A stretch of DNA of 64,000 nt from contig NZ_CP018800.1 of NCBI RefSeq assembly GCF_002795825.1, positions 992,001 through 1,056,000 on the forward strand. The letters are read 5' to 3'. Shown here one piece after another: positions 35,725 to 38,774 of this stretch. Every line of letters begins with the position of its first letter. Positions within the stretch are counted from its first letter, which is position 1. Source of the DNA: Mariprofundus ferrinatatus. Its GTDB lineage: Bacteria > Pseudomonadota > Zetaproteobacteria > Mariprofundales > Mariprofundaceae. The translations under genes and the position numbers were made by a program. Under the pieces are notes generated by a model. It ran no database searches and was not told the DNA's origin. It worked only from the letters and a program-made list of their open reading frames with translations.

Positions 35725-37749
35725 TTATTGCAGCAGAATATTTTTGATGGTGCGACTTAGCTCCGGTATATTGCAAGGTTTGGAGATCACTGCAACCGAT
35801 CCCATATCCAAGTCATCCGGATTTATCTGCTGTTCACCATAGCCTGTCATGAACAGGAGGGGGATCTCTGGCCTCATCCTGCGGATCGCCTTGGCGGCCT
35901 CAACGCCACCCAGCTTCGGCATCACGACATCAAGAATTACCAGTGAGAATTCATCTGGGTTTTGCATGAAAATTTCTAGAGCTTCCGCTCCGTTGCAGGC
36001 TTCAACTACGCTATAGTTCAGGCTGGTTAATATTTCAGATGTGATTTCCCGGATGTTTCCATCATCATCAACATGAAGGATTTTTTCGAGTCCGCCTTCA
36101 ATAGCATGTCTATTTACATGTAAACTTTCTTCAGCCTTCTCAATCAGGGGGAGATAGATGTTGAAACAGGTGTCGCCGGGAGTGCTTTCAACCTCGATAA
36201 TGCCGTTGTGCTGCTGGACAGCCCCGTAGACCATGGAGAGTCCGAGGCCGGTGCCTTCTCCTGCTGCTTTGGTGGTATAAAAGGGTTCGAAGATCTTCCC
36301 AACATCCTCTGTAGGAATGCCACATCCGCTATCTCTCACCTGAAGCAGCGCAAAGTGCGAGGCTATGGTTTGAGGGTGTTGCTCTCTAAATGAGCGATCT
36401 GCTTTGAACGATTTAAGGGAGACGGAAACCAGAGCGCTCTCGCCACATGCATCATGTGCATTCTTTAGCAGGTTAATCAGAATCTGTTGTAGCTGTGTGG
36501 CGTCGCCCTGTACCGTCAATGGTTCAGGTGTGAAGTCTCCTTTAAGCGTGGTGCTTTCCGGGATTGCGACGCTGGAAATCTTGTATGCCTCTTTAAGCAA
36601 GAGCGAGAGATTAACCGGCTTCATGCTGGCAGAGTCCTTATGGGCGAAGGTGAGAAGTTGTTTGATCATCTGCGCAGCCCTCAAAGAGAGCTCCTCCGCA
36701 GCAGAGAGCTGTCCGGCAGCCTTTGGTGAGAGAGCTGCCCTCGTTTTAATCAGATAGAGGTTGCCTAGGATGCCGGCCAGCATGTTGTTGAATTCATGAG
36801 CAATGCCGCTGGCCAGTGTGCCGATGGCCTCCATCTTCTGTGATTGACGCATCTGCTGCTCCATCTGCTCTTGCTCGGAGATATCCTGTGAAATGCATAC
36901 GTAACCGGAAATCTGATCGGAAGAGGTATCAAACACAGGAGAGATAGATGTGAGTGCGGGATACAGGCTGCCATCCTTTCGTTTATTGATAATGCGCCCC
37001 TCCCAGCTGTTGCCCCGGGTGATGGTTTTCCACATCTTTTCAAAGAAGGCATTGTCATGATGTGAACTGCGCAGAATCGAAGGTTTTGCTCCTATAGCCT
37101 CCTGCTTTGGAATACCGGTTATCGTTTCAAAGGCATCGTTTAGATACTCGATCGTCCCATCCGGAGCGGTAATCATGAGGATTTCGGATGCCTGCTGCAC
37201 CGCTGCGTTGAGCTTGCTAAGTTCGCTGGTACGTCTGGCCACAAGCGCCTCAAGCTCATGCTGTATCTGCTGTCGGAGCTCTTCGGCGTGCTTTCGCTCG
37301 GTAATATCACGGGCGGTAACCGCATAGCATGGGTCATTTTCAAGGTTCAGGGTGCATGCGGTGATTTCGAGCGGAAGCGGGGAGAGATGTTTTCGACGCC
37401 CTTCAAGTTCACAGACTTTCTGTCCCTTCTTACTGGCAATCGATCCGGGATTCAGGTCTGGAATCAGCTGATCGATGTTCAACCTTGCCAGCTCCTGCTC
37501 AGACATGGCGAAAAGCCTGCATGCAGCTGGATTGGCTTCACGGACATCGCCATTGGCCGAAATAATCAGGATGGCGTCGAAGGCGTGCTGTATCAGGGAG
37601 CGGTATCGGCTGCGGCTCTCCTTGAGTGCAATCTCCGCATCATTGAACTGCTGGCGAATTCGAGCTGACTGTTTCATGGCCTGCTCGAGAAGCTCTACGC
37701 GTTGTTTAAGTGTTTTGTTTTCCAGTTCCAGATCAGAGCTCATTGGCAC
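35725..37749 (-). CDS. hybrid sensor histidine kinase with two PAS domains and receiver
   Basis: 674 residues without a membrane span. An N-terminal coiled coil (8-45) is followed by PAS1 (about 48-150) and PAS2 (about 180-290, EYLNDAFETITGIPKQEAIG). A HisKA-type phosphoacceptor comes next (LASGIAHEFNNMLAG, His near 318), then HATPase (RDSGCGIPTEDVGKIFEPF, GTGLGLSMVYGAV). The C-terminal receiver has ILHVDDDGNIRE and the phospho-Asp in LVILDVVMP. GTG 37749 directly follows the stop of the diiron protein gene; ATG 37743 is an alternative start. The two are cotranscribed, so the kinase probably reads the state of that protein. Confidence 0.92.
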   Translation of the reverse strand: MPMSSDLELENKTLKQRVELLEQAMKQSARIRQQFNDAEIALKESRSRYRSLIQHAFDAILIISANGDVREANPAACRLFAMSEQELARLNIDQLIPDLNPGSIASKKGQKVCELEGRRKHLSPLPLEITACTLNLENDPCYAVTARDITERKHAEELRQQIQHELEALVARRTSELSKLNAAVQQASEILMITAPDGTIEYLNDAFETITGIPKQEAIGAKPSILRSSHHDNAFFEKMWKTITRGNSWEGRIINKRKDGSLYPALTSISPVFDTSSDQISGYVCISQDISEQEQMEQQMRQSQKMEAIGTLASGIAHEFNNMLAGILGNLYLIKTRAALSPKAAGQLSAAEELSLRAAQMIKQLLTFAHKDSASMKPVNLSLLLKEAYKISSVAIPESTTLKGDFTPEPLTVQGDATQLQQILINLLKNAHDACGESALVSVSLKSFKADRSFREQHPQTIASHFALLQVRDSGCGIPTEDVGKIFEPFYTTKAAGEGTGLGLSMVYGAVQQHNGIIEVESTPGDTCFNIYLPLIEKAEESLHVNRHAIEGGLEKILHVDDDGNIREITSEILTSLNYSVVEACNGAEALEIFMQNPDEFSLVILDVVMPKLGGVEAAKAIRRMRPEIPLLFMTGYGEQQINPDDLDMGSVAVISKPCNIPELSRTIKNILLQ

Positions 37750-38526
37750 TTATCCCAGTTCTGGATATGCAATATCCGTTCCGCATCGAAGTGTTCTCAG
37801 GTAGTCGAGCGCGGCAGGAACATGCTCGCCGGCAATAATCGAGCCGTGTTGCGGCAGGATTGCATCAATCGGGAGATCGGCGATCTTATTGACGAAGCCT
37901 TTGGCAGCAATATTTGATGCCATGTAGTCGATATGGAAAAGATCCATGTTGAGTGCGTGCTTTTCAAAGTCCTGAGTGACGAGATTCCAGTCGGTGGTCA
38001 GGGCGGCCCAGATATCCCCTGAAAAGAGAAAACGGGCACTTTCACTATAGGTTACAAATGCGGCAGGAGAGTGAAGAAATGGCGCGGTAATAAATCTCAG
38101 GGCCATGCCGGAAGAGAGCTGATAACGAGGGTTCTCCTCAATATCGAAAGCAGTGAACTCCATCTCGCCGTAGTGGGGCAGTAGCACCATTGTACGCGGC
38201 GATGTGAATACTTTGGCTTTCGGGTTTAATGCCAGCCAGTCTACCATCGAGGCAGCAACATCAGGATCCTGATGGCAAAGGATCATGCCGGAGACCGATT
38301 CCGGATTCATGATCTGTTGTACACGGCTTTTAATCTGCTCGAAATAGCTCCTGGAGCCGGGGTCGACAATAATTGCCTCTTCGCCATCGACAATCAGATA
38401 GGCATTACAGCGGAAGGCGGTGTCATCAGTGATGCCAAGCCAGTAGATGGAATGGCCATCCTGCTGGTACAGAAGGGTGGGCTTCATCATGTCGATCCCT
38501 GTATCTACGAACAAATTTCCCCGCAT
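37750..38526 (-). CDS. ODP/flavodiiron-like metallo-beta-lactamase-fold diiron protein
   Basis: 258 residues from ATG 38526 (AGGAGA upstream). Metal ligands at residues His85, Asp87, Asp89 (HQDPD), His152, Asp171 and His227 have almost the spacing of flavodiiron proteins (79/81/83/146/165/226). There is no flavodoxin or rubredoxin domain. This matches the oxygen-binding diiron protein (ODP) family, described as an O2 sensor in spirochete chemotaxis. The operon with a PAS hybrid kinase supports an oxygen- or NO-sensing role (inference). Longer in-frame starts up to 38580 are possible. Confidence 0.85.
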   Translation of the reverse strand: MRGNLFVDTGIDMMKPTLLYQQDGHSIYWLGITDDTAFRCNAYLIVDGEEAIIVDPGSRSYFEQIKSRVQQIMNPESVSGMILCHQDPDVAASMVDWLALNPKAKVFTSPRTMVLLPHYGEMEFTAFDIEENPRYQLSSGMALRFITAPFLHSPAAFVTYSESARFLFSGDIWAALTTDWNLVTQDFEKHALNMDLFHIDYMASNIAAKGFVNKIADLPIDAILPQHGSIIAGEHVPAALDYLRTLRCGTDIAYPELG

Positions 38527-38774
38527 CTGTTCTTCTCTCCTGTCACTCCAGCCCCTTCTGTTCGGGTGGGTGATCCACAATCAACTATCTATCGCATTAT
38601 CGCCAATATACTTGAGGCTTAAAATTAAATAACTTTTTCCATGAGAGATTCGCAGCAATATTACGTTGGGTGAGGTGTGCGGGTTAAGTCGGCGTAACTG
38701 CGGTCCCCATTTCGATTCAAGATATAATACGGAATTGCGATGCCATCTCTGCTGACCCAGAGTTGGGGGTATCC

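Follow-up and report, generated by a model that had tools for sequence, protein, structure and literature searches.

The gene pair described here lies on the reverse strand of a 64,000-nucleotide stretch of the genome of the marine iron oxidizer Mariprofundus ferrinatatus (contig NZ_CP018800.1, positions 992,001 to 1,056,000; hereafter the window, whose own numbering is used for all coordinates) and encodes a member of the oxygen-binding diiron protein family (ODP; 258 aa, 37750 to 38526) followed by a soluble hybrid histidine kinase with two PAS domains (674 aa, 35725 to 37749). We consider it probable that the ODP is the sensor subunit of the hybrid kinase, the two proteins forming one bipartite cytoplasmic receptor coupled through a segment at the N terminus of the kinase (37615 to 37734; match to segment profile A4, E = 7.5e-13). 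The role of the ODP as kinase sensor is strongly supported because the gene pairs are conserved, ODP-kinase fusions occur naturally, and the coupling segment is nearly exclusive to ODP partners.

Partner proteins of differing output share this N-terminal coiled coil of about 40 residues, which has a leucine-rich start, a glutamine invariant in 38 aligned sequences, often an aromatic residue eight positions further on, and then LK. The segment belongs to no Pfam family: among five N-termini scanned, the best E value was 0.0062 and none rose above the cut-off, for which reason its identification as a known Pfam domain was dropped (one sub-threshold match was to PF20975, 'DGC-associated coil', at 0.0083). 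An iterative search begun from 44 residues of the window alone, run against the open reading frames of 140 loci, returned 81 matches, a number that includes eight duplicates from ten class loci fetched twice under two identifiers (e.g., L075 and L118). In 79 of the 81 the matching gene either lay 3' of an ODP or was itself an ODP fusion; of the remaining two, one was L169, which has the same arrangement with a misread start, and the other was an additional kinase within a Gallionella gene cluster already represented by a match. Ten partners selected because they looked short were scanned with Pfam and none had a PAS domain; eight carried only HisKA/HATPase or only GGDEF, and two added GAF. The natural pair of L191 (Sulfuricurvum) is simpler than that of the window, its partner consisting of the segment and a kinase alone.

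A genomic co-occurrence search, which the original prediction had proposed as a check, showed that the pairing recurs. The ODP family PF19583 was present in 39 of the 78 genomes of the host's class, with neighborhoods containing hybrid kinases, HD-GYP proteins, GGDEF proteins and GGDEF fusions. We also analyzed ODP loci taken as the best 80 of 114 from a scan of named genomes with two ODP motifs alone. These loci span Pseudomonadota, Campylobacterota, Bacteroidota, Thermodesulfobacteriota and Myxococcota; they hold many close relatives (21 rows labelled Bacteroidota), and most are contigs of metagenome-assembled genomes (MAGs), whose organism names may err. Neighborhood domains were called with home-grown profiles built from few seeds, not with Pfam, except where Pfam is named. 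A same-strand gene for an output domain lay directly 3' of the ODP in 63 of the 80 loci and three loci held fusions (two GGDEF, one kinase). As background, these loci contain 583 other genes encoding 100 aa or more, of which 74 have an output domain. In three further loci the 3' gene bore the segment and was cut or carried PAS only, in seven the next gene was on the opposite strand, and two ended at a contig edge; L173 was scored 'other', its neighbor on reading also being on the opposite strand, and in L169 no ODP frame had been selected though a partner follows, making it one more pair, its start having been misread. The 66 3' genes comprised 24 hybrid kinases, 17 kinases, 10 GGDEF proteins, 8 GGDEF-EAL proteins, 4 HD-GYP proteins (the label of L145 is doubtful, and HD-GYP in L190 and L197 was read by eye, under the identifiers L084 and L088) and 3 that were cut or PAS-only. 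Within the 80 loci there were 70 segment matches in 69 loci; the 11 loci lacking a match were L132, L142, L153, L166, L171, L173, L174, L182, L189, L195 and L196, of which L132 is a fusion with a divergent segment by eye. The window genome has 51 HATPase_c matches among about 2,240 genes, and the chance that a random neighbor would be a HATPase_c gene is about 2 in 100; chance adjacency of ODP and kinase was dropped as an explanation, given this figure per neighbor and the recurrence of the pairing across many genomes.

The segment appears to stay with the ODP when outputs are exchanged. A quick maximum-likelihood tree of 110 ODP rows (mixture model off, long-branch warning, 40 of 107 forks below 80% support) contained one 85-row clade (SH-aLRT 96) made up of all 80 loci and five further rows from the class, including that of the window. 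An output was assigned to 70 of the rows (44 kinase, 22 GGDEF/EAL, 4 HD-GYP); these require at least nine output changes, nine being the parsimony minimum on this quick tree. The ODPs of L120 (a Gallionella MAG, kinase output) and L123 (a Methylobacter MAG, GGDEF output), for example, are 89% identical and their segments 85% identical. Over 971 pairs with different outputs, segment identity was correlated with ODP identity (rho = 0.316), a value reached by none of 999 within-class permutations (maximum 0.217).

In whole genomes the segment was almost exclusive to ODP partners and fusions, as measured with two profiles, A1 (11 sequences from the class) and A4 (38 sequences, a wider set). A1 gave 17 matches at E ≤ 0.01 in the 78 class genomes, 13 of them strong (E ≤ 1.2e-14) and four weak (E ≥ 5.8e-4), and 12 of the 13 strong matches lay 3' of, or were fused to, an ODP, the exception being in genome G004. 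Across 398 genomes of the host's phylum, A4 returned 14 matches at E ≤ 0.001; 13 of these were 108 to 211 bases 3' of an ODP domain, and G004 was again the sole exception. At the same threshold A1 gave 20 matches in the 398 genomes, consisting of the 13 strong class matches, one ODP partner (G098) and six weak matches (1.9e-4 to 8.7e-4) whose loci contained no ODP and two of which were FlgK-like by eye. At E ≤ 0.001 these six speak against regarding A1 as a clean marker; A4 did not return them at that threshold. A4 gave four matches in 259 genomes from the phylum to which G398 belongs, called Campylobacterota here by the name of L145: three lie immediately 3' of an ODP (two outside the 80 loci), and the fourth is a chance match with stops inside. 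An ODP occurs in 32 of the 259 genomes, mostly of non-segment types. Run on the 29 whole genomes from which 30 of the 80 loci derive, A4 returned 25 matches, 24 of which were the known partner and the last a second segment-bearing kinase of the same Gallionella gene cluster; seven of the 29 genomes had no match, two of them with fusions and five whose ODP had no same-strand partner. The A4 searches of the 398 and the 29 genomes mainly test the absence of the segment elsewhere, as most matches are A4 rows or near to them; finds beyond its own loci were those in G065, G004, G667 and G589. In the window genome, despite the 51 HATPase_c matches, the only segment matches (A4) were the ODP-partnered kinase and the second ODP of M. 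ferrinatatus, an 837-aa ODP-PAS-GAF-GGDEF fusion with the coupling segment between ODP and output (L038:7287-9800, forward strand; genome position about C1:439286-441799). A deltaproteobacterial MAG locus, L192, has an architecture similar to that of this fusion.

Natural fusions join sensor and output in one chain. Ten of 30 Campylobacterota loci (L301-L303, L305, L309-L311 and L313-L315) were found by reading to encode one-piece ODP-helix-HisKA-HATPase proteins. The four such fusions that were scanned with Pfam all lacked any further sensor domain, and the five other fusions scanned were all ODP-GGDEF proteins (Pfam; one weak, 1.2e-5). AlphaFold2 modeled one naturally fused protein, L181, with the segment at the start of an uninterrupted helix (residues 269-377) that extends into the phosphoacceptor region.

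The window protein is assigned to the ODP family with a predicted diiron site whose ligand set is intact. It matched PF19583 at 1.1e-63 (215.1 bits; curated cut-off 27.2), and its AlphaFold2 model, computed from an alignment of 50 rows, had a mean pLDDT of 92.7 and a pTM of 0.92. The ten top Protein Data Bank (PDB) chains for the model were all ODPs (TMq 0.80-0.88), with titles naming T. maritima and T. denticola, the best being the T. maritima ODP (TM 0.88 to 6qwo); flavodiiron-type chains ranked next, at TMq 0.67-0.76 among the 50 matches listed, and the modeled fold is thus nearer to solved ODPs than to flavodiiron proteins. These results uphold the initial identification of a diiron ODP-like protein. 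By sequence, the closest solved structures are the oxygen-binding diiron proteins 6qrq (5.3e-45) and 6qnm (8e-40), with which the ligand positions align. The predicted ligands H85, D87 and D89 in the motif HQDPD (38260 to 38274), H152 (38071 to 38073), D171 (38014 to 38016) and H227, preceded by Q226 (37846 to 37851), were numbered correctly at the outset, and all six, as well as Q226, were invariant in 50 of 50 aligned ODPs, a set of our own choosing from the fetched loci; Q86 was likewise invariant. In the T. maritima ODP the third histidine of motif 2 is absent and a glutamine at motif 5 is an unusual ligand (PMC7785958); in the window protein V90 directly follows HQDPD, standing where that third histidine would be, and Q226 is taken to be the equivalent of the unusual glutamine. 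Besides ODP, Pfam matched only Lactamase_B; the flavodoxin domain is absent, as had been claimed, and because of this absence the reading of the protein as a flavodiiron enzyme was rejected. The gene begins with an ATG at 38526, eight nucleotides after a Shine-Dalgarno-like AGGAGAG read from the sequence (38535 to 38541), and the boundary of 37749 first given for it was off by one base, the correct position being 37750.

The partner combines HisKA (36631 to 36822), HATPase_c (36145 to 36507) and a C-terminal receiver domain (Response_reg, 35746 to 36081) in a single protein, which makes it a hybrid histidine kinase by Pfam. The likely phosphoacceptors, both residues being present, are H318 in the sequence AHEFNN and D607 in the receiver. 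Ahead of the catalytic core are two PAS domains, PAS_8 at residues 48-101 (37447 to 37608) and PAS_9 at residues 190-292 (36874 to 37182), and the hydropathy peak over 19 residues was only 1.42, so that by this measure the kinase has no transmembrane helix; its original description as a soluble PAS hybrid kinase is therefore sound. The ODP stop codon (TAA) directly abuts a GTG at 37749, and an ATG at 37743, 6 nt further on, is at least as likely to be the kinase start because the two nearest homologous kinases begin with MSSDLE or VSSELE. The claim that the ODP stop abuts the kinase start accordingly holds for the GTG and gives way to a gap of 6 nt if the ATG is used.

In the mechanism we propose, the ODP would bind a diiron centre and, as do the ODPs of Treponema and Thermotoga, shift conformation upon Fe(II) loading and O2 addition. 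The ODP would contact the coiled-coil segment at the N terminus of the hybrid kinase, and this segment may relay the conformational shift by way of the PAS domains to the helix of the dimerization and histidine phosphotransfer (DHp) region, thereby setting the balance of kinase and phosphatase activity; the C-terminal receiver would then join a phosphorelay whose output is encoded elsewhere in the genome. We infer from the same analogy that O2 or Fe(II) is the signal, with Fe(II) as likely to matter. The earlier proposal of an oxygen- or NO-responsive two-component system survives in part: gene pairs, fusions and segment favor the ODP as kinase sensor, and 'two-component' is apt for this locus, but nothing supports NO. 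The module itself is broader, since diguanylate cyclases and phosphodiesterases are also partners of this ODP clade.

Several observations weigh against the proposed receptor. The kinase might respond to another signal, sensed by its two PAS domains. The draft genome G004 retains a segment-bearing kinase (L114:4470-6536, forward strand), and no ODP was found in that genome; the kinase gene comes immediately after a gene judged by eye to be RNase R-like, with no ODP between, while in G006 (L090), which has the same genus code, the RNase R-like gene is followed by an ODP, and G004 thus seems to have lost its sensor gene unless its assembly is at fault. An ODP (E ≤ 1e-30) occurs in 102 of the 398 phylum genomes, yet only 13 segment matches lie beside one, so that most ODPs of this phylum sample are not of the segment type. 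Of 20 non-segment ODP loci retrieved, some encode fusions of ODP with GGDEF or a kinase, or adjoin GGDEF or kinase genes, but seven (L270, L272-L275, L277 and L278) have no adjacent signaling gene by our own profiles, L275 having a PAS gene two genes away. For seven ODPs within the 80 loci (L142, L153, L166, L173, L174, L182 and L189) no partner lies 3' on the same strand; no segment match at E ≤ 0.001 was obtained in the genomes of L142, L166, L174, L182 and L189, and L142, L153 and L173 are Bacteroidales. In L171/L083, L195/L074 and L077 the kinase partner is 5' and the segment was not found. Finally, the model of the L181 fusion had a pTM of 0.47 and a disordered linker, and no docking was seen.

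That some ODPs lack a signaling neighbor, together with membership of the ODP in the superfamily of flavodiiron reductases, would fit a metabolic enzyme, an O2- or NO-scavenging diiron protein or a zinc hydrolase merely co-transcribed with the kinase at oxic-anoxic boundaries and not coupled to it. We regard this as very unlikely: there is no flavodoxin domain to supply electrons, co-transcription leaves unexplained an ODP-tied segment common to unrelated outputs, and it does not account for the one-piece ODP-kinase and ODP-GGDEF proteins. A further alternative is that the segment is a mere dimerizing coiled coil inherited with the partner's N terminus, making no contact with the ODP, whose coupling would run through PAS or DHp. 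Its sequence is coiled-coil-like, AlphaFold2 shows a continuous helix from the segment into the HisKA region, and G004 keeps it without an ODP. A generic dimerization element would not be expected to be confined to ODP partners genome-wide, however, and the segment is kept in partners without any PAS and follows the ODP through output swaps; we therefore judge this alternative unlikely.

The interaction could also be real and the signal Fe(II), H2O2, NO or metal status instead of O2, which we think rather doubtful. ODPs have been described as sensing both oxygen and iron (PMC7319448), the genus of the host points to an Fe(II) oxidizer, and related flavodiiron proteins, going by their PDB names, reduce NO, but the close solved relatives include 6r9n, a peroxy-diiron form named as a chemotaxis sensor. 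The names of the hosts of the 80 loci, moreover, reach beyond iron oxidizers. By the names from the scan these hosts include Bacteroidales and organisms that we take to be methanotrophs and sulfur oxidizers.

The ODP-kinase pair belongs to an already known group because Muok et al. 2019, as summarized in PMC7319448, recognized ODPs in operons with different signal-transduction genes or fused to signaling domains; that summary, in the text available, names no shared segment, exclusivity or output swapping. In T. denticola, ODP is an O2 sensor for chemotaxis that is genetically coupled to a soluble methyl-accepting chemotaxis protein (MCP; PMC7666581), and ODP interacts directly with cognate receptors (PMC6978683). 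The Mariprofundus protein shares the ODP family, fold and ligand set with that ODP/TDE2496/CheA system, in which the ODP is likewise encoded with a soluble receptor that has no sensing module of its own and modulates a kinase. It differs in that the protein paired with it is a hybrid histidine kinase in its own right, bearing its own segment; no MCP or CheA was found at the locus, where the neighbor is the hybrid kinase and the flanks are housekeeping genes. In principle, RsbQ-RsbP (PMC3183031) offers the closest precedent, in which a separate sensor is encoded beside varied outputs (phosphatase, kinase, diguanylate cyclase). There the sensor is an alpha/beta hydrolase that contacts PAS, whereas here it is a diiron protein of the metallo-beta-lactamase fold with a segment ahead of PAS, and the segment, unlike that coupling, also occurs where PAS is absent; the ODP-segment pair thus works like the RsbQ-PAS bipartite module without being a member of it. 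Bacterial hemerythrin sensors (VcBhr-DGC and Ferrovum Bhr-HD-GYP; PMC8846402) share the non-heme diiron control by O2 or redox of cyclic di-GMP (c-di-GMP) enzymes, and one of their hosts is, as with Mariprofundus, an iron oxidizer, but they have another fold and other ligands and are fused domains, while the ODP here is a separate subunit. Flavodiiron proteins have in common with the ODP the diiron metallo-beta-lactamase core and ligand spacing and differ in carrying the flavodoxin domain. No description of the coupling segment was met in the literature searched, parts of which were available as excerpts, and its absence from Muok et al. 2019 is not thereby established; nor did that literature mention the near-exclusive sharing of the segment, its survival through output swaps or a second adaptor. 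The term 'ODP' is missing from the available text of two reviews (PMC8846402 and PMC13401364).

We lean, with reservations, toward a wider reading in which the helical adaptor of about 40 residues makes a plug-in oxygen/iron-sensing module, with outputs exchanged behind a fixed ODP-adaptor interface in five phyla, with the separate diiron subunit read by the same adaptor ahead of histidine kinase, hybrid kinase, diguanylate cyclase, GGDEF-EAL and HD-GYP outputs, and with a different adaptor of its own for a second ODP clade. For many soluble kinases and c-di-GMP enzymes no input can be recognized; in this group a 40-residue signature allows one to be predicted, an ODP one gene upstream. Iron oxidizers and other bacteria of redox gradients thereby gain a candidate O2/Fe(II) receptor, a modular non-heme sensor whose interface is open to tests with short peptides, and the natural one-piece ODP-kinases are good material for biochemistry. 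In the second ODP clade of the host's class (L079, L082, L080, L073, L081, L086 and G059:C391), partners share a different N-terminal stretch, A2. A profile of five A2 rows gave seven matches in the 78 class genomes, all of them 120 to 133 bases 3' of an ODP domain; two were new and five were in the profile.

The window genome consists of 2,301,665 bases in one contig, and the window has a GC content of 53%; for strain CP-8 of M. ferrinatatus a closed genome of 2.30 Mbp with 54% GC and 2,237 genes has been reported (PMC5513912), and Zetaproteobacteria isolates are generally microaerophiles of oxic-anoxic transition zones (PMC6443915). A Mariprofundus relative (L118) carries an ODP 81% identical to that of the window. 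The pair is flanked by genes for uroporphyrinogen decarboxylase, a Na+/H+ antiporter, a pseudouridine synthase, a cytochrome c and ketol-acid reductoisomerase; these are housekeeping genes with no DNA-binding regulator among them, in agreement with the initial observation that no cognate regulator is adjacent. HPt matches in the window genome numbered four, all within open frames of at least 767 aa. A promoter and terminator scan gave two and two sites, respectively, versus 4.2 and 2.9 in shuffles, and thus nothing usable, and Rfam over the window returned two tRNAs and nothing else.

Two other ODP arrangements were observed. In L065 (950-3975), and also in L063 and L061, an ODP has two genes behind it. 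One encodes a 243-aa protein without a Pfam match that by eye resembles a DHp fragment plus a hemerythrin, the other a protein that is, also by eye, REC-EAL-PilZ-like. A group of 249-aa ODPs adjoins a Roadblock/LC7 gene (L047:8733-9098; Pfam run on L047 only) with a further small protein upstream, and neighbors of similar size occur in L040, L039 and L053; the Roadblock/LC7 neighbor suggests that these ODPs may provide input to a small-GTPase-like system.

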